Shown piece after piece: positions 45,840 through 56,505 of a DNA stretch of 64,000 nucleotides. The stretch's first letter is position 1. Each line of letters opens with the position of its first letter. The position numbers and the translations under genes were made by a program. This DNA comes from Candidatus Scalindua sp. SCAELEC01. Lineage in GTDB: Bacteria > Planctomycetota > Brocadiia > Brocadiales > Scalinduaceae. The stretch covers positions 1 through 64,000 of the forward strand of contig SHMT01000022.1 in assembly GCA_004282745.1 (NCBI GenBank), written 5' to 3'. A model generated the notes under the pieces. The model worked only from the letters and a program-made list of their open reading frames with translations, did no database searches and was not told the origin of the DNA.

Positions 45840-46163
45840 TCATGCAAAAGATATTTTTGTGAGAGGGTATGATACATTTGTTCCGGCACCATCAGTAACT
45901 TGTACATGAGTCCAGGGCTCTTTGCCATCGGTCATTCTTGCAAAGTGAAAGGGTAGAGGTTGCCGCTGCTTGGGGCCGCCACTGGGGTTTACGGTAACGG
46001 TAATTTTTAAGATTTTCTTGTCGAGTTCTGGCTCTTCATGCTGTTCTGCAGACACTTCATCATCAAAGGCGTCAACCATGACGAGTCCATCTACCCTCAA
46101 GATTTTTGATTTTGGCCTTAAATCCCATTCTGCTTTTGTAACTTTAATTTTCATTGTATGCAT
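45840..46163 (-). CDS. Small uncharacterised beta-rich protein
   Basis: 107 residues (104 from an inner ATG at 46154 that begins KIKVTKAEWDL). There is no signal peptide or membrane segment. Alternating hydrophobics (SKILRVDGLVMVDAF; KKILKITVTVNP) suggest a beta-sandwich or beta-barrel. I do not recognise the family. It stands alone and divergent from the thiolase operon. It is plausibly real given its codon pattern and length. Confidence 0.5.
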   Translation of the reverse strand: MHTMKIKVTKAEWDLRPKSKILRVDGLVMVDAFDDEVSAEQHEEPELDKKILKITVTVNPSGGPKQRQPLPFHFARMTDGKEPWTHVQVTDGAGTNVSYPLTKISFA

Positions 46164-46391: not shown

Positions 46392-47528
46392 ATGTATGTT
46401 CTTGGAGTTGGCAGGACAAAGTTTGGAGTACTCACAGAAACCATGCCGGAATTGGCCTATCAGGCAATGTATAACGCCATTAACGATAGCCCAATTTCTA
46501 TTGAAGATATCGGGGCCGTGTATGTGAGCAATTTTTTGGGTGGCCCTTATGAGAAACAGTTGCACCTTAACTCAGTTGTTTCAAGCCTGCTGCCGGAGTT
46601 ACGTCTCCCTATTATTCGAGTGGAGACCGCCTGTGCCTCAGGGAGCAGCGCACTCTATCAGGCCATAATCGCACTCTCAAGGTTCGAAAATATTTTGATC
46701 GTTGGGGTTGAGAAGATGACGAATGCGTCAACCGAAGAGAGTTCGCAAAACCTGGGAATGGCGGGAGACAGATTAGCAGACCAAACGCAGGGTCTCATCT
46801 TCCCCGCCCATTACGCCCTGGTTGCGCAGCAACACATGGAAAAATACGGAACAACACACGAAGATCTTGAATTGGTAGCATTTAAGAATCACGGTAATTC
46901 TCGGTTGAATCCACTCGCACACTTTAACCATAAGGAGGTATCTCGTGAGATGATAAAGAGTGCGCCCGTAATTGCCTCACCCTTGAATCTCTTCGACTGC
47001 TCTCCCATTTCTGATGGAGCGGCAGCAGTCGTGATATCAAAAAATCAAAAGAGTGATCGTGATGTACGCATAACGGGGTCGAGCCTGTTTACCGACCATA
47101 TATCCTTGTCTCATCGAAGAGAACATACCTCTCTTGAGGCTGCTAAGCTTGCCAGCAAGCAGGCATATGAACAGGCTGAAATCACCCCTAAAGATCTTGA
47201 TATCGTTGAGGTTCATGACTGTTTTACCATCAACGAACTGGTCGCAATGGAAGATCTTGGAATCTGTAAGCCGGGGGAGAGTAAAGATTGGGTTCGGGAA
47301 GAAAAAACTACTATTAAGGGGGAGGTTCCCATAAACACCGATGGGGGACTGAAGGCAGATGGACACCCAATTGGGGCAACAGGTCTTGCCCAGGTATTTG
47401 AAGTAACAACCCAATTACGTGGAGAGGCTGAGGGTCGACAGGTAGAGGGGGCGAAGATTGGTTTGACACATAATATTGGTGGTGTCGGTGGAACAGCCGT
47501 AGTACATATCTTTGAAAGGAGGGGGTAA
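46392..47528 (+). CDS. Archaeal/SCP2-type thiolase
   Basis: 378 residues with GAGGGGGTGA before the ATG. The nucleophile is Cys81 in VETACASGSS. His275 in EVHDCFT and the GGLKADGHPIGATG motif (His325) complete the SCP2-like (archaeal-style) thiolase active site; the second Cys of bacterial biosynthetic thiolases is not in its usual CxG place. This class pairs with DUF35 OB-fold proteins, as in archaeal acetoacetyl-CoA synthesis. The next gene begins with a DUF35 domain, 1 base after this stop, so the complex is likely. Condensation of acyl-CoAs (acetoacetyl-CoA type) is the probable reaction. Confidence 0.92.
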   Translation: MYVLGVGRTKFGVLTETMPELAYQAMYNAINDSPISIEDIGAVYVSNFLGGPYEKQLHLNSVVSSLLPELRLPIIRVETACASGSSALYQAIIALSRFENILIVGVEKMTNASTEESSQNLGMAGDRLADQTQGLIFPAHYALVAQQHMEKYGTTHEDLELVAFKNHGNSRLNPLAHFNHKEVSREMIKSAPVIASPLNLFDCSPISDGAAAVVISKNQKSDRDVRITGSSLFTDHISLSHRREHTSLEAAKLASKQAYEQAEITPKDLDIVEVHDCFTINELVAMEDLGICKPGESKDWVREEKTTIKGEVPINTDGGLKADGHPIGATGLAQVFEVTTQLRGEAEGRQVEGAKIGLTHNIGGVGGTAVVHIFERRG

Positions 47529-47529
47529 C

Positions 47530-48636
47530 GTGGTATTTGAGTGTGAAGATTGCCATAAAAAATGGTACTATGATGTAAAAGTGTGTATCTTCTGTCAGGG
47601 GAATGTAGCAGAAGTTGTACCAAAACAGAGTACGGTCAGAGGTTTCACCAAGGTAGCAATCCCGTCACCGGGGCATTCGCGAGTTCCCTACTGTAATCTC
47701 TTATTAGAAGATGATTATGGAAACTTCCGGATCAGAAAATCTTTCACTGAATATAAGCTCGGTGACCTAATCGAAGAAACACCTAAAGAGCAAAAGCAGG
47801 CGGCAAAGCAGAGAACGGTTGGTCTCATAGGGACGGGGACGATGGGGAGTGGAATTGCCCAGGTCTGTGCCCAAACAGGATATCAGGTAATCATGATTGA
47901 CAGACACGAAGAGATTGCCAGAAAGTCGCTCGGAAAGATTGATAAAGCGCTTTCGAAAACAACAAAGGATGAGTTAAAAAAAGAGATTCTCGGTAGGATT
48001 AAGATCACCAATAATTTTTATGATCTTGAACACGCAAACCTTGTGATTGAGGTCTTAACAGAAGATATGGAACTGAAGCACGAGGTGCTTAAGGAGCTGG
48101 AACATGAGTGTTCTCAAGATACAATCTTTGCAACCAATACCTCATCACTCTCTATTGATGGGTTGTCTCAGGTTCTCAAAAATCCGGGCAGGTTAGTGGG
48201 GCTCCACTTCTTCAATCCGGTACCTAAGATGAAGCTCGTTGAGATAGTGAGGGGAAAAGAGACCTCAGATGCTGTTGTTAACTTTGCACAGGAGGTTGCT
48301 ACTGAAATGGGAAAAACCCCTGTTGTTACGGGAGATGCACCCGGTTTCATCGTTAATCGACTCTTGTTACCTTTTCTGAACGAAGCGATGGATAAATTCT
48401 CCGACGGGACATCAACGGCAGAGGATATTGATAGGGCCGTTACCTTGGGCCTTAATCACCCTATGGGCCCTTTAGCCCTCACAGATTTGATTGGCCTAGA
48501 TGTTTGTAAGGCTATATTGGATGTACTATATGCAGGGTATAATGACCATAAGTATAAACCGTGCAAGACACTGTGTGAGATGGTTGAGAAAGGTGACCTG
48601 GGCAGAAAGACAGGAAAAGGATTTTATACCTACTAA
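47530..48636 (+). CDS. DUF35 zinc-ribbon/OB protein fused to 3-hydroxyacyl-CoA dehydrogenase
   Basis: 368 residues with a GTG start, AAAGGAGG upstream. Residues 1-88 are a DUF35 unit: a zinc ribbon with Cys5/8 and Cys19/22 (CEDC ... CIFC) and an OB-fold (STVRGFTKVAIPSPGHSRVPY). Residues about 95-368 are a complete 3-hydroxyacyl-CoA dehydrogenase: NAD-binding GLIGTGTMGSGIAQ (98-111), LHFFNPVPKMKLVE (catalytic-His region) and the C-terminal GLNHPMGPLALTDLIGLD. DUF35 normally acts as a scaffold passing intermediates between thiolase and HMG-CoA synthase in archaea. Here it would tether the reducing enzyme to the thiolase, channelling acetoacetyl-CoA to 3-hydroxybutyryl-CoA. The tethering is inference. 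Confidence 0.9.
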   Translation: MVFECEDCHKKWYYDVKVCIFCQGNVAEVVPKQSTVRGFTKVAIPSPGHSRVPYCNLLLEDDYGNFRIRKSFTEYKLGDLIEETPKEQKQAAKQRTVGLIGTGTMGSGIAQVCAQTGYQVIMIDRHEEIARKSLGKIDKALSKTTKDELKKEILGRIKITNNFYDLEHANLVIEVLTEDMELKHEVLKELEHECSQDTIFATNTSSLSIDGLSQVLKNPGRLVGLHFFNPVPKMKLVEIVRGKETSDAVVNFAQEVATEMGKTPVVTGDAPGFIVNRLLLPFLNEAMDKFSDGTSTAEDIDRAVTLGLNHPMGPLALTDLIGLDVCKAILDVLYAGYNDHKYKPCKTLCEMVEKGDLGRKTGKGFYTY

Positions 48637-48764
48637 AAAATATCACGCAAAGGCACAGAGACACAAAGAATTACGGCTAAAAAAAGCTTGAAAAATGCTA
48701 ATTGATAATTTTACACTTTGCATTTATATGGGTCTGGCTTGGCCAGGCGGGAGTAGAAAAAAAG

Positions 48765-50129
48765 ATGAGTGACGAAGGAAAAATTATAGAAGAGATTACC
48801 GGTAAAATTAAGTCGGGTGAGGTACAACCATGGAAGGCTGAGTCGGTTTTAATAGAAGAGTGCGGACTGAAAGCACCCGAGCACTATCGGATTGCAGCGG
48901 TGAGTAGACGGAGAGTTATTGAAGAGTTGACCGGATACGAATTCAACTACCTGGAGCTGCCGGAACAGCCATATCTGATGCAGTGGCGTTGCCCCAAGGA
49001 CAAATCTATCTGGCATATCGAAGCGAGAGATCAGGATACTGCCTGTACCCGATGCGGCGCTTCACTTGAACCTTTTGGCGAGGAAGGAGAGCGATACCGG
49101 CCGCTTGCAAATAATTATGTCGGTGGTAGTGAAGAGTACTACTCGTATGCTGGGCAGATAAAGGTTTTCGGAGATGTTGACAAGACCTTTACAAATGTTT
49201 TGGCCTATGGACCAGGCTTCGGATCCCTGGGTATCAGTGTGGGGTGTTTCCGGGTGAATAAATTGGGGGGGGCGGAGGTAAAGGTGGCAAAATTGGCAGG
49301 AGCGTCCCGCAACTTAGGGTATGTTTTTCATGGTGAAGAAGAGAGGGAGAGGGCGGTCCAAGCGGCAAAAGAGTATCTGCCAACCTTAAGGGCAGAGATG
49401 GAAGAGAAGTATCTTGCAGAGTTTTCCGGTGAGGTTTATGAGGTTGATTTTGTGAGAAGACAGCATCACGGTCAGTGCTATCTCTCTATCTGTTTTCATA
49501 CGCGGTTTGAACATGCGAGAGGACACGGGGATACTTCGATAGCCGTAGGCTTTGCGAGAGGTAGATTGGACAAGAAATTTGAGGAAAAAGGGGTTAAATA
49601 TCAGCAAAGCCTCATTGCCATGGGCTATGACGGTGATCTCAAGCCCTCACCACGCAATCGACGGGGGCGTTACGTCTCTGCACAAGTGGAATTGCCGATA
49701 TCGGCGTATGAAAAAATGAGCAAGACAAGCATTGATTCGCTACTCACCTATATGGAGATTGACCGGCAGGGAGTTACGCAAGAACAGGGCCATTTTCTCT
49801 ATTCGGGAATGGGGGGGGAGATTATACCCGCCATTTATCGAGGAACCAAGGTGAATCCTCGGCCGTACAACGTCTCATGTACTGAAAATGTGTACGTTGA
49901 AATCAGAGGTGAAAACCTTATCTATGGCGTGGAATTGCCAAATTTAGAAGCGGGAGCAACATCATCAAGAGAGGGACTGATTTGTCCGACCGCAAGAGAG
50001 GTCCTTAAGTTTATGGGTATAGGGACATCAAGAGAATTTGCAGCAGCTACCGCTGCCATCACGCTGGCGGGTGAATTCAACTTTACCTTACTGCATCTTC
50101 GTGGTGAGATGTATGTCAGCAATGATTAG
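48765..50129 (+). CDS. HMG-CoA reductase-like protein lacking catalytic residues, with Cys motif
   Basis: 454 residues from the ATG at 48765. Its C-terminal third aligns by eye with HMG-CoA reductase: Y-G-V-E-L-P-N-L-E-A-G (HMGR: 'ISxTMPSIExG') and REFAAATAAITLAGEF (HMGR: 'ELARxxAAxVLAGEL'). All four catalytic positions look changed: Glu of ENVIG is Asn116 (NNYVGG), Lys of TDKKP is Leu292 (GDLKP), Asp of GQDxxQN is Asn364 (VNPRPYN), and the final GHLxxSH His is absent (GEMYVSND). GDAMGMN reads GDTSIAV. A C76...C94-x2-C97 cluster, probably zinc, is inserted before it. It is probably co-transcribed with the two genes upstream, 129 bases away. The function is unknown; reductase activity is doubtful. 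Confidence 0.7.
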   Translation: MSDEGKIIEEITGKIKSGEVQPWKAESVLIEECGLKAPEHYRIAAVSRRRVIEELTGYEFNYLELPEQPYLMQWRCPKDKSIWHIEARDQDTACTRCGASLEPFGEEGERYRPLANNYVGGSEEYYSYAGQIKVFGDVDKTFTNVLAYGPGFGSLGISVGCFRVNKLGGAEVKVAKLAGASRNLGYVFHGEEERERAVQAAKEYLPTLRAEMEEKYLAEFSGEVYEVDFVRRQHHGQCYLSICFHTRFEHARGHGDTSIAVGFARGRLDKKFEEKGVKYQQSLIAMGYDGDLKPSPRNRRGRYVSAQVELPISAYEKMSKTSIDSLLTYMEIDRQGVTQEQGHFLYSGMGGEIIPAIYRGTKVNPRPYNVSCTENVYVEIRGENLIYGVELPNLEAGATSSREGLICPTAREVLKFMGIGTSREFAAATAAITLAGEFNFTLLHLRGEMYVSND

Positions 50130-50174: not shown

Positions 50175-50747
50175 ATGAAAGATAAATTTTATATTGTAAA
50201 TCTATTTATCATTTTAGTTCTGCTTCTTACAAGCGACACGGTCGTTGCAAAAAAACGTTGGCAAGATAGTTTTATAAAACCAAAAGAAGTTGCCGCCGAG
50301 AAATCCGCAGTAAAAGCAATTGCCAGGGCTAGGCTGGCACTGGAGGAAGCTGATATTTTACACCAAGCTTATATTACGCTAATAGCAGAAAATTTCACAA
50401 CAGGCCCTGGAGTGCTTAATGCGGTAGATATCACTGAAAAGGTATTTGAGATAGTGGAGAAAAAAGGAAAGTATAAGGCGAGAATATTGAGTACAGCTGA
50501 AAAGCCATTACTCTCAAAGTACGCTCCAAGAGATGATTTTGAGGTGTATGCAATTAAGATAATACTATCGGGTAAATCTTATTACGAAAGGGTTTTCTTT
50601 GATTACGATGGCAAAGATTTTTTAAGAGCTTCTACACCGGTAAGTGTGACTACAAAGAAATGCTTAGTATGCCATCCAACGAAAAAAGTAGGCGATATAA
50701 TGGGTATCATTTCATATACGTTTCCTCTTGAGGAATATTATAAGTAG
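50175..50747 (+). CDS. DUF3365-type (Tll0287-like) c-haem protein
   Basis: 190 residues. A signal peptide (IVNLFIILVLLLTSDTVVAKK) leads to a helical/PAS-like DUF3365 domain and one haem-binding CxxCH (KKCLVCHPTKK, Cys about 170). Such proteins are small periplasmic sensors or electron carriers. The TAG stop (50745-50747) spans the junction with a 145-bp miniature element: its last G is the first base of the element. The duplicated target TAAGTA already held the TA of that stop, so the protein is unchanged by the insertion. Confidence 0.82.
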   Translation: MKDKFYIVNLFIILVLLLTSDTVVAKKRWQDSFIKPKEVAAEKSAVKAIARARLALEEADILHQAYITLIAENFTTGPGVLNAVDITEKVFEIVEKKGKYKARILSTAEKPLLSKYAPRDDFEVYAIKIILSGKSYYERVFFDYDGKDFLRASTPVSVTTKKCLVCHPTKKVGDIMGIISYTFPLEEYYK

Positions 50748-52856: not shown

Positions 52857-53987
52857 TTACTTAGCGTCCAGATAATCGAGGAGTAATCTTGCTAAATTGA
52901 AATTGTGCATCCCATATTTTTTAACCAGGTTCATGAGGTTTTTATCTCTCTCTTGTAGAGTATCTAATTCTGGATCAGAAAATATATTGGTCCTCTTCTC
53001 AATTGCCGTAATCCAGGCATCATGGAGCTCTCCATACCTCTTATTGTGGCACCCTATACATTTTCCCTTCACACCGAGGAACGTAAATGTCTCTTTATCA
53101 AAAAGGTGGCACTCTTCACAGCTAACGGCCCTCGACATGAGATCCGCTTCAGCAGCTATCCCCTCCACATATTTTTTCCCCCTTGAAAATTCAAAGGGTT
53201 CTTTGTGACACTTAATGCACTCTCTCTCTTCATCAGAGAGATGGTGGCATTTGCTGCAATTTACGTTGTATTTCTCTATTCCGGTCTCACTGTTCCGGGT
53301 ACTCACATGGCACTCATTGCAGCGTACCTCCTGATCCGGATGTGCAGAGTGGTCAAAGTCAACGCTCCATAACAGCTTTTTTGCCTGAATCTTATCCGGG
53401 ACAAAGGATTTCGTCAAATCTTCCTCATGGCACTTGATACAATCGAGGTCGGGGGTGGTATGGTGGCATTTGATGCAGTCTATCTCTTTTTTCAGTGACG
53501 CGGTCGGGTCTTTTTGATGACATAACCTGCAATCAACATCATCATATACGGTAAATCCATGCACAAATTTTTCATTGTTAAATTTCATGGGAGTGGCATC
53601 GATATTCAGGTGACATGAGTTACATTTCAACTCTTCAGATTCCACATGGTGACAAGAGAGGCAGTCTTTCCGGTTAATCAACAATTTTCCATGCCCTTCG
53701 GTATTGACCAGACTGTCGTTATGGCATGATATACAATCGATCTCTTGATTAAATAGGTGTCTCCCGTGCCTGAAAACCTCTCTCTTGTCTGCTGCATATT
53801 CAAACTCAACTTCATATGCCATAAAACCGACATGACACCTTTCCGTACACGAACCGTGACTCTCAAAAGAGTCTCTCTCCACAGTGGTATATCTTGACAT
53901 GTCCAGCAACTCACCAGCAGAAACCCGTTTCTGCGCAAGAGAGAGAGTTGATACAAATAATAGTATTGATAAAACAGTGAATCGCAT
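52857..53987 (-). CDS. Multihaem cytochrome c (11 CxxCH plus one CX3CH)
   Basis: 376 residues from the ATG at 53987 (GAGGT 5 bases upstream; an ATG at 53999 is possible). A signal peptide (VLSILLFVSTLSLAQ) sends it to the periplasm or paryphoplasm/anammoxosome. Eleven CxxCH haem sites are visible, from CISCH through CIGCH, plus a CTERCH (CX3CH) near the N-terminus that could be a twelfth, atypical site. No other catalytic domain is apparent, so it looks like an electron-storage or transfer protein. It is the last gene of the cytochrome b cluster, 150 bases after the preceding gene. Confidence 0.9.
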   Translation of the reverse strand: MRFTVLSILLFVSTLSLAQKRVSAGELLDMSRYTTVERDSFESHGSCTERCHVGFMAYEVEFEYAADKREVFRHGRHLFNQEIDCISCHNDSLVNTEGHGKLLINRKDCLSCHHVESEELKCNSCHLNIDATPMKFNNEKFVHGFTVYDDVDCRLCHQKDPTASLKKEIDCIKCHHTTPDLDCIKCHEEDLTKSFVPDKIQAKKLLWSVDFDHSAHPDQEVRCNECHVSTRNSETGIEKYNVNCSKCHHLSDEERECIKCHKEPFEFSRGKKYVEGIAAEADLMSRAVSCEECHLFDKETFTFLGVKGKCIGCHNKRYGELHDAWITAIEKRTNIFSDPELDTLQERDKNLMNLVKKYGMHNFNLARLLLDYLDAK

Positions 53988-54034
53988 AGAAGACCTCATT
54001 ACTATAAAGAAAAATCTATCGGAGAACTTTTTTC

Positions 54035-54116
54035 CTCACGCCAAGGCGCAAAGAACGCAAAGGGGATTAATTTTTGGACCATGTTTTTCTTGGCGAACTT
54101 TGCGGCTTTGCGTGAG
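54035..54116. repeat. Short interspersed inverted repeat between cytochrome genes
   Basis: CTCACGCCAAGGCGCAAAG at the left and CTTTGCGGCTTTGCGTGAG at the right form an imperfect inverted repeat about 80 bases long. A related word, TCACGCAAAGGCACAGAGAC, lies at 48644-48663. It resembles widespread bacterial CGCAAAG-rich intergenic repeats. Confidence 0.65.
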
Positions 54117-54134
54117 AATGAGTGTCTTGATCGG

Positions 54135-55487
54135 TTAATCATTAATGTTTTCCTGTAAATGATCGATACTAAAGGCGATCAAATCCTTGATATATTTGAT
54201 ATTATGCACACCGTAGCTCCCATCCTTCATAATCAGCTCATAGTTATAGGTTGCGGTGTCAATCTGCTCATCTGGAATCCCTTGATCTCGTGACTCCTTG
54301 ATCAAGTCCGACAAGGTCTTTACCATTCGGGAAACCAACTCCTTCTGTTCCTGCAGAATCTTCTCAAATCCCCTTTCGTGGCAGCTATTACACACCGTTG
54401 GGACTACCTTAAGATCATTGTTATCCGTGTGACAGGCAATACAGTTAACGGTAGCAAGGAACATGGGGTCGGGAAGCCCTTTTACCCCTCTTCCACCGAC
54501 ACCCCTGTAGATTTCGCTTTGTACTCGGAATGGTACGGTATCAAAAAGACCTTCTTCACTCTGTCTGATAAAAGAATTAATGGGATTTGGACTTCCGTTT
54601 CCATGAGCGCTCTCTAATCGCTCCTCTTTCTGGCGCTCTTTATCCCCTTCGGCAGAAAGAAAACGTGAGTATGTATCGTCCCACTTGTGTACTATCCTGT
54701 TGTGACAGGGAGAACAGGGTACCTTATGCTCTTTGACATGGTCTTCGTGCATCCTCGCTGGGCCGGCATACGCTTTCGGAACCTTCGTATGGCAATAGTA
54801 GCAACTTTTACTCTCAACCCCCCCACTCCCCTGTACCGTCTCAAAGTGGCAGTTGGTACATGCTACTCCGAGCCTCTTTTCATATTTCAGATGATCAAAC
54901 ACTTTATCGTAAATTTCCGTCTCTACTTGAACATCATTGTGACACAAAAGGCAGTCGTCGATTGCCATCGACTCTTGAGTTTTCAGTATGGGTGGGCCGT
55001 TACCTTTCGTAAAATGACAGATAAAGCATGCAGTTGCATCTATGGAGAAATGGCTGGCCTTCACCCCCTCTGACTCATCGTTACCAGTATACGAATGGCA
55101 TCCGGTACATTTCAATCTGAGATTCGTATCATACTCCTTGATGTGCGTTGCGTGGCGGAAAGAGACAACGTTCGCATAGTTTGAAACCTGAGAATTGAGC
55201 TCCTCTCTAGGGTGACAGTCTCTGGTTGTGCAACTCTTATCCTCCATCTCAACGGAGAGGGTCTTGCCGCTTCTGTCATGAGTGTGACAATCAAGACACA
55301 CGGCATTACATGATACCGTCTCCTTCCACGAATTGAAAGACGGTTCCATGCTATGGCACCGCGCACAAAATTGAGGAGATACTGGCCTCTCTGCTGCTAT
55401 CTTAATGAGAGAGATGCAACAGATAAAGCTGATGATGGTAACTACCGATAGTACTTTTACACTCTTTTGATTTTTAATTTCATCCAT
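54135..55487 (-). CDS. Membrane-anchored multihaem cytochrome c (10 CxxCH plus one CX4CH)
   Basis: 450 residues from the ATG at 55487, 13 bases after the upstream stop; an ATG at 55532 would overlap it. One N-terminal membrane helix (VLSVVTIISFICCISLIKIAA) followed closely by CARCHSMEP recalls NapC/NirT-type anchors. Ten CxxCH sites follow (CARCH, CLDCH, CTGCH, CFICH, CLLCH, CTNCH, CYYCH, CSPCH, CIACH, CNSCH). There is one CTTRDCH (CX4CH). The C-terminal 100 residues are helical. It could pass electrons from a quinol oxidising site towards soluble carriers; the placement next to cytochrome b supports this. Confidence 0.9.
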   Translation of the reverse strand: MDEIKNQKSVKVLSVVTIISFICCISLIKIAAERPVSPQFCARCHSMEPSFNSWKETVSCNAVCLDCHTHDRSGKTLSVEMEDKSCTTRDCHPREELNSQVSNYANVVSFRHATHIKEYDTNLRLKCTGCHSYTGNDESEGVKASHFSIDATACFICHFTKGNGPPILKTQESMAIDDCLLCHNDVQVETEIYDKVFDHLKYEKRLGVACTNCHFETVQGSGGVESKSCYYCHTKVPKAYAGPARMHEDHVKEHKVPCSPCHNRIVHKWDDTYSRFLSAEGDKERQKEERLESAHGNGSPNPINSFIRQSEEGLFDTVPFRVQSEIYRGVGGRGVKGLPDPMFLATVNCIACHTDNNDLKVVPTVCNSCHERGFEKILQEQKELVSRMVKTLSDLIKESRDQGIPDEQIDTATYNYELIMKDGSYGVHNIKYIKDLIAFSIDHLQENIND

Positions 55488-55500
55488 CAGATATACCGGG

Positions 55501-56505
55501 TTAGTGTTCAATGAGTGCTTCCACTTTTGCAAATAGTGCTTTGTTTACCCTTTTGAAATCAGTTCTATAGAGGAGGGCCTCCAACGTGCTCATTTCCCCA
55601 TCAAATTCATCAACAGCAAAACTGAACGGGTATTCCCTCTTCTCCAGTGGCTTTAGTTGCGTGTTGAGTTCAACGAACATGCTCTCCTCACTGGATCTGA
55701 CACTCCTTCCAAAATTATCCTTGAGGTGAATGAGCAAAAGGACCTCCCGGTATCCGTAACTTCCAGTTGGAATAGTGTGCGGGATCAAAATATTTTGAAT
55801 TTGTACCCTCCCTTCAATGAGGGTATCGGTTCTCTCTATTTCAGAGAAGGACAATGTGATAAAGTCTCTATTGGCTTCCATAGCGCCCAGGCGTGAGAAT
55901 GTGTGAGCCTTACCCTCCTTTTTCTTGTGTATCTTTTGCCACGGTTCGTCTTGTATCAGCTTCCTATTAACTGCAGGCATGTGGCAATCCTGGCACGTCT
56001 GCTTCTCAAACACGTTACCATAGATTAGATACTCCTCGTACGTATCAATGTGACACGTGCCGCAAAGCTTACTGTCCCGGTAAAATGCTTCATTCTTCTC
56101 TAATGGATGGGGACCCATTCCAGAATGTGGGCCGGAAAGGCGGCAATCGGATGTGAGGTGGCACCCTTGACAATCAACCCCATCTTCTACGTTATGACTC
56201 CGCGCTTTTATCTCCTGAGGCTCTGTAAAGACAGTTTCCGGTACATGGCAGCTCAAACAGAATTGAAACTCATAATCGCCGGATGTAGTACGAAATTCCT
56301 CGTTCACGTAACTTTTTGCGTGCGGAGAACCTGCCCACTCGTTGTATATGGTAATGTGGCAATCACCACATCTCTCTGCTCCGGGAGACTCTGCTCCTCT
56401 TTTTACCAGCTCAGGAAAGATATTCATCTGGCATCCTGAAGATAGGATGGAGGTTGCAATCAGAAACGTGGTTAACAGTATAAGAGAAATCGATTTAGTG
56501 CTCAT
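55501..56505 (-). CDS. Pentahaem lipoprotein, cytochrome c554-like
   Basis: 334 residues. The signal peptide ends with a lipobox (SILSSGC, Cys25), so it is lipid-anchored. Five CxxCH sites: CGDCH, CLSCH, CQGCH, CGTCH, CQDCH. The pattern AERCGDCHITIYNEWAGSPHAKSY is characteristic of the cytochrome c554/c-prime group, which in ammonia oxidisers takes electrons from hydroxylamine oxidoreductase. A beta-rich C-terminal domain (about 210-334) is extra. It is encoded between the cytochrome b subunits and the decahaem genes, pointing to a complex. Confidence 0.9.
   Translation of the reverse strand: MSTKSISLILLTTFLIATSILSSGCQMNIFPELVKRGAESPGAERCGDCHITIYNEWAGSPHAKSYVNEEFRTTSGDYEFQFCLSCHVPETVFTEPQEIKARSHNVEDGVDCQGCHLTSDCRLSGPHSGMGPHPLEKNEAFYRDSKLCGTCHIDTYEEYLIYGNVFEKQTCQDCHMPAVNRKLIQDEPWQKIHKKKEGKAHTFSRLGAMEANRDFITLSFSEIERTDTLIEGRVQIQNILIPHTIPTGSYGYREVLLLIHLKDNFGRSVRSSEESMFVELNTQLKPLEKREYPFSFAVDEFDGEMSTLEALLYRTDFKRVNKALFAKVEALIEH

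Follow-up and report, generated by a model that had tools for sequence, protein, structure and literature searches.

A conserved gene trio of some anammox bacteria that combines a thiolase, a DUF35-like-dehydrogenase fusion and an HMG-CoA reductase fold without its catalytic residues

Background

DUF35 domains act as bridges between a thiolase-fold enzyme and the enzyme that catalyses a neighbouring step (PMC12329534), and fusions of DUF35 to Rossmann-fold domains have been described (PMC2954200). In the Pseudomonas acyltransferase PhlABC, the active thiolase-fold protein PhlC is joined by the DUF35 protein PhlB and an inactive homologue, PhlA (PMC2954200). An archaeal complex of thiolase, 3-hydroxy-3-methylglutaryl-coenzyme A (HMG-CoA) synthase and DUF35 is described in PMC12329534. 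We analysed a locus of three genes that recalls these systems. It lies in a 64,000-nucleotide stretch of contig SHMT01000022.1 (“the window”), which comes from a Scalindua-type anammox genome whose nearest named relatives are Candidatus Scalindua genomes.

An earlier reading of this DNA, made without database searches (the sequence-only reading), placed three consecutive genes here. The open reading frames (ORFs) of the window bear this out: a thiolase gene, a DUF35-like-dehydrogenase fusion and a gene for a protein with the HMG-CoA reductase (HMGR) fold stand in tandem on the + strand (Table 1). As a module the trio is both real and conserved, and we found no description of it. It is a variant of thiolase/DUF35 systems, and the surprise in it is a disarmed HMGR fold.

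Results

The trio as one unit

Scattering of the three genes among relatives, which the sequence-only reading named as a point against itself, was not what we found in other anammox genomes. In each of the 11 genomes that carry it intact, the trio is adjacent and in the same order, and the surrounding genes differ. Among the 62 genomes of the order, the same 11 contain full-length matches to all three proteins (thiolase, fused dehydrogenase and HMGR-like protein). A twelfth genome (G013) has a partial set only, namely the thiolase and the beginning of the gene for the fusion (its Zn-ribbon/OB part), at a contig end (base 4130). Pairwise distances of the three proteins correlate with one another (r=0.93-0.97).

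Losses also involve the trio as a block. Four loci (L020, L030, L031 and L032) retain the 3′ part of the HMGR-like gene, beginning at residues 352, ~218, 432 and 421, respectively; L020 additionally keeps codons 1-40 of the thiolase, joined directly to the HMGR-like remnant. Because the end points of the remnants differ, they point to separate deletions of the block. The trio is evidently one inherited unit.

Carriers come from two genera of the window's family (Scalinduaceae, judging from named contigs); families f4 and f5 contribute a single genome each (G021 and G299, respectively). Family f5 corresponds by inference to Brocadiaceae, the family of Kuenenia, Brocadia and Jettenia, and the trio is absent from 32 of its 33 genomes. 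A contig scan with a single sequence, which reaches close relatives only, found Scalindua-type contigs and one contig binned as Neomarinimicrobiota; more distant relatives outside Planctomycetota are possible. The exceptional contig is that of L020 (PBZW01000054.1), assigned to Candidatus Neomarinimicrobiota. Its trio remnants are Scalindua-like (~80% identity) and it is probably mis-binned. Three of the scar-bearing genomes are small (2.1-2.7 Mb), in keeping with the streamlining reported for Scalindua from oxygen-deficient zones (PMC11104535).

This distribution bears on the suggestion, made in the sequence-only reading, that the trio supplies C4 units for ladderanes or other anammox-wide lipids. 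Anammox bacteria, to which the host belongs, have unusual lipids, and the enzymes could yield a C4-CoA. Ladderanes, however, are produced throughout anammox bacteria. The trio is missing from nearly all f5 genomes and has been deleted in several Scalindua-type genomes. Moreover, the proposed ladderane genes are clusters of the type II fatty acid synthesis kind, e.g., kuste3335-3352 (PMC4790861). We consider a role in ladderane synthesis very improbable and reject it in view of the trio's absence from most anammox genomes. Because it is absent from most ladderane makers and has been lost repeatedly, the trio is an accessory trait.

An HMGR fold without HMGR residues

HMGR is the target of the statins and, to our knowledge, only one reaction is known for its fold. 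The third trio protein gives a weak match, over threshold, to the Pfam family HMG-CoA_red (30.4 bits, cut-off 27), a family with matches over the cut-off in 68 of 392 planctomycete genomes. Profile-profile comparison with hhalign is much clearer. Against class I planctomycete HMGRs we obtained E=5e-15 over 313 columns (reversed profile, E=0.17; shuffled controls, E=0.006-0.5); the comparison with class II HMGRs gave E=6e-4. Judging by these matches, the third protein is an HMGR by descent. A search of PDB sequences with the family profile returned nothing significant, and tblastn found no HMGR-like relative in plasmids. The gene probably starts at ATG 48765 rather than at TTG 48702, because conservation begins at the ATG. 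A Zn-ribbon-like stretch (C76..D79..C94..C97) precedes the HMGR-like domain.

Structure prediction agrees with this assignment. An AlphaFold model built from 10 family sequences alone was poor (predicted local distance difference test score, pLDDT, 44) and was set aside. A second model, with HMGR rows in the alignment, reached a pLDDT of 73 and a predicted template modelling score of 0.67, and Foldseek matched it to archaeal and human HMGR (E=1.6e-20). The whole-chain root-mean-square deviation was ~15 Å in most matches, reflecting domain placement, and 3.6-3.9 Å in shorter alignments. Since the alignment behind the model contained HMGR rows, this match supports the homology without being independent of it.

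We mapped residues of human HMGR, whose roles we take from established knowledge of that enzyme, onto the family through a true planctomycete HMGR (L053). The sequence-only reading described a protein without catalytic residues, while allowing that alignment could reveal intact motifs. After alignment the motifs remain lost. In human numbering, E559 is replaced by P or T, K691 by L and D767 by N, and H866 is absent, in 11 of 11 sequences, whereas 12 of 12 planctomycete HMGRs retain all four residues. The NADP-binding motif GDAMGxN is likewise replaced (D653 by H, G656 by T; N658 is variable). The planctomycete HMGR used for the mapping is itself an intact class I enzyme, encoded at L053:1568-2839 (-) in genome G303.

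The ratio of nonsynonymous to synonymous substitution rates (dN/dS) of the HMGR-fold gene is 0.07-0.08, similar to that of the dehydrogenase (0.05-0.09) and above that of the thiolase (0.02-0.04). The gene is under strong purifying selection. The lost HMGR residues and this tight constraint together argue that the third protein is functional, and that its function is not that of an HMGR.

These losses leave next to no room for an active or remnant mevalonate-pathway locus with a working HMGR. Such a locus would be suggested by the archaeal thiolase/HMG-CoA synthase/DUF35 complexes, which feed HMGR, and by the class I HMGR fold of the third protein. Yet all four catalytic residues are gone, and no other HMGR is present in the trio genomes. 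HMG-CoA synthase (TIGR00748) is over the cut-off in none of the 62 genomes of the order, in agreement with the sequence-only reading that this enzyme has been swapped out. Given the missing synthase and HMGR residues, we reject this explanation.

Alternatively, the active site of the HMGR-fold protein may have been rebuilt, so that the protein is a working enzyme that performs the next step on the product of the thiolase and dehydrogenase, e.g., another 3-hydroxyacyl-CoA transformation. The protein is very strongly conserved, has its own invariant set of polar residues and is always retained alongside the thiolase and dehydrogenase. In addition, Arg590, Asp690 and Lys692 (human numbering) are kept although the catalytic tetrad is gone. 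However, the CoA contacts Ser565 and Arg568 are lost together with the NADPH motif, and we found no HMGR-fold enzyme with another reaction in the literature that we searched. We regard this as a tentative alternative, the main one to a structural or holding role. Somewhat more doubtful still is that this would be the first HMGR-fold protein with a different reaction, one acting on 3-hydroxyacyl-CoA or 3-oxoacyl-CoA from the attached thiolase and dehydrogenase.

The thiolase and the fused dehydrogenase

The thiolase passes the score of the curated family NF004720/PRK06064 (428.9 bits, cut-off 420), and its PDB matches are the archaeal acetoacetyl-CoA thiolases 7yvy and 6esq (6esq_A, E=6e-74). 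Its catalytic motifs (Cys, His and HNIGG) are intact in 10 of 10 sequences. It is thus an archaeal-type thiolase, as the sequence-only reading proposed, and its substrate is most likely acetyl-CoA/acetoacetyl-CoA.

That reading also described a fusion between the DUF35 partner and the enzyme of the following pathway step, and the second gene supports this. The encoded protein matches the Pfam domains 3HCDH_N (E=2e-58) and 3HCDH (E=4e-34). Its dehydrogenase part scores 345.9 against PRK05808, below the cut-off of 408; its NAD-binding and catalytic motifs are intact, the catalytic ones in 10 of 10 sequences. Compared to the usual dehydrogenase there are ~95 additional N-terminal residues, in which an OB-like stretch comes after a ribbon with four cysteines. 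Numbered from the start of the listed ORF (47512), the DUF35-like part occupies residues ~8-95 and the dehydrogenase residues 101-374.

Neither Pfam model for DUF35 (PF12172 for the Zn-ribbon, PF01796 for the OB part) matches the N-terminal domain. By contrast, hhalign aligned it to a planctomycete DUF35 alignment with E=3e-4 over 84 of 99 columns, and the cysteines line up; in the controls of this comparison, shuffled or reversed, E was 0.06-0.26. The C-x2-C...C-x2-C pattern ahead of the OB stretch occurs in 11 of 11 sequences. With moderate confidence, we consider the N-terminal domain a diverged DUF35-type domain. We did not find it outside trio carriers in a sample of 294 planctomycete genomes.

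The fused gene probably starts at GTG 47530, the next in-frame start, where relatives have ATG, GTG or TTG. The near-invariant “MKGG” that would precede it is the in-frame reading of a conserved Shine-Dalgarno sequence (AAAGGAGG / TTGAAAGGAGG) overlapping the thiolase end. This sequence is found in all 11 loci; its last base deviates in L029. Its position inside the thiolase end implies that translation of the thiolase and dehydrogenase genes is coupled.

A thiolase with a 3-hydroxybutyryl-CoA dehydrogenase could also make the precursor of polyhydroxybutyrate. However, the dehydrogenase is a member of the (S)-specific 3HCDH family and not a PhaB, and none of the trio genomes has a polyhydroxybutyrate synthase; the only one of the 62 genomes with PhaC_N lacks the trio. 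This role is exceedingly unlikely, and the missing synthase led us to reject it. Crotonase genes are uninformative about the product of the trio: they occur in 52 of the 62 genomes, with or without it.

The trio could instead be degradative, oxidizing 3-hydroxyacyl-CoA that derives from compounds taken up by scavenging (ketones, branched or short acids) and cleaving the product to acetyl-CoA. In acetone-degrading sulfate reducers, a dehydrogenase oxidizes 3-hydroxybutyryl-CoA to acetoacetyl-CoA, and the same induced gene cluster encodes a DUF35 protein together with acetyl-CoA acetyltransferases (PMC8084838). The patchy distribution of the trio and its loss in small genomes would also fit an accessory catabolic trait. 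On the other hand, sequence cannot reveal direction, and we recognized neither an acyl-CoA synthetase nor a mutase or an acyl-CoA dehydrogenase beside the trio, although most neighbours outside the window were not scanned for families and mutase was not searched genome-wide. Degradation is possible, but we would not expect it.

Predicted function

The trio may form a multi-protein acyl-CoA complex, with a DUF35-like domain as the bridge between thiolase and dehydrogenase and the HMGR-fold protein as a subunit that is structural or holds acyl-CoA. We judge this to have about an even chance of being right. The motifs, the fusion, the tandem order, the co-occurrence, the joint loss, the HMGR homology and the loss of HMGR residues were read from the sequences, and from them we infer that the proteins form a complex, on which substrate and in which direction it works, and what the HMGR-fold subunit does. 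The thiolase would condense two acetyl-CoA to acetoacetyl-CoA, or cleave acetoacetyl-CoA. Through its DUF35-like domain the fused dehydrogenase would dock on the thiolase, which would allow the intermediate to be handed on, and would interconvert acetoacetyl-CoA and (S)-3-hydroxybutyryl-CoA. The HMGR-fold protein, formerly a class I HMGR, could serve in a manner comparable to the inactive PhlA of PhlABC. All three proteins are presumably soluble.

Several points weigh against such a complex. It is a prediction from sequence, and its DUF35 component was assigned by the moderate profile-profile match given above. Thiolase-DUF35 pairs are able to use other substrates, e.g., benzoylsuccinyl-CoA, and related thiolases paired with DUF35 use other acyl-CoAs. 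Finally, the many new conserved polar residues in the HMGR-fold protein (RRQHHG, ARGHG, TKVNPRPYNVSCTEN) would fit a new active site.

Features of the window and other loci

Table 1. Position of the trio and of neighbouring features in the window
Feature	Position	Strand	Remarks
107-aa protein	45840..46163	-	no Pfam match
Acetoacetyl-CoA-type thiolase (archaeal/SCP2-like subgroup), 378 aa	46392..47528	+	Cys81, His325, HDCFTINEL and HNIGG intact
Shine-Dalgarno AAAGGAGGG within thiolase 3′ end	47515..47523	+	sequence of 11 loci
Zn-ribbon/OB (DUF35-like) + 3-hydroxybutyryl-CoA dehydrogenase fusion	47530..48636 (listed ORF 47512-48636)	+	
Class I HMG-CoA-reductase-fold protein, 454 aa	48765..50129 (ORF from TTG 48702)	+	without catalytic and NADPH-binding residues
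Tll0287-like protein	50175..50747		
Three successive multihaem cytochrome c genes	52857..56505	-	Cytochrome_C7/c3-type; one with NapC/NirT-like N-terminus

The gene for the 107-aa protein is divergently oriented and upstream of the trio in almost every locus, with 57-86% identity among loci. It persists in the trio-deleted loci L020, L030 and L032, and was not seen near the trio in G021. The gene for the Tll0287-like protein is close to the multihaem cytochrome c genes. Elsewhere in the host's own genome (L130:5818-9136, contig C19), genes for a 3-hydroxyacyl-CoA dehydrogenase, an FkbH-like protein and an acyl-CoA dehydrogenase are consecutive. This set resembles an extender unit cluster of the methoxymalonyl-acyl carrier protein type, and a nearby gene resembles part of an acyl-CoA ligase.

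Comparison with known systems

At least 11 sequences keep the HMGR fold without the catalytic residues, under purifying selection and tied to a thiolase and a dehydrogenase, which makes them a clear case of a fold with a new job. With the trio, the thiolase/DUF35 theme also comes to include a bridging domain that is fused to a 3-hydroxybutyryl-CoA dehydrogenase. The term “undescribed condensing system” in the sequence-only reading was nonetheless too strong, as thiolase/DUF35 complexes and DUF35 fusions to the next enzyme are known (PMC12329534, PMC2954200). What does appear to be undescribed is the dehydrogenase fusion in a thiolase/DUF35 context and the HMGR-fold subunit.

Two of the proteins can also be compared individually with known enzymes. 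The dehydrogenase part of the fusion is nearly colinear with 3-hydroxybutyryl-CoA dehydrogenase (PRK05808; PDB 9fbd, 6aa8), from which the fusion differs by its N-terminal DUF35-like extension. The third protein shares the whole catalytic-domain fold and the length of class I HMGR (PF00368; 6hr7/6hr8, 1dq8), but lacks E559, K691, D767, H866 and the NADPH motif, and has the extra Zn-ribbon-like stretch.

As a set, the trio resembles the archaeal thiolase/HMG-CoA synthase/DUF35 complex in having a thiolase of the same subgroup, a DUF35-type Zn-ribbon/OB bridge and the attached enzyme of the next pathway step. Unlike that complex, it has a 3-hydroxybutyryl-CoA dehydrogenase, fused to the DUF35-like domain, instead of HMG-CoA synthase, and adds an HMGR-fold protein without HMGR residues. 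The steroid aldolase-hydratase complexes Sal-Shy and Ltp2-ChsH1/ChsH2 (PMC12329534) likewise combine a thiolase-fold enzyme with DUF35 fused to the enzyme of a neighbouring step. In the trio, however, the partner is a dehydrogenase rather than a hydratase, and the thiolase keeps thiolase, not aldolase, residues. PhlABC has three components, as does the trio, but the presumed inactive member of the trio has the HMGR fold instead of the thiolase fold, and a dehydrogenase is fused to the DUF35-like part.

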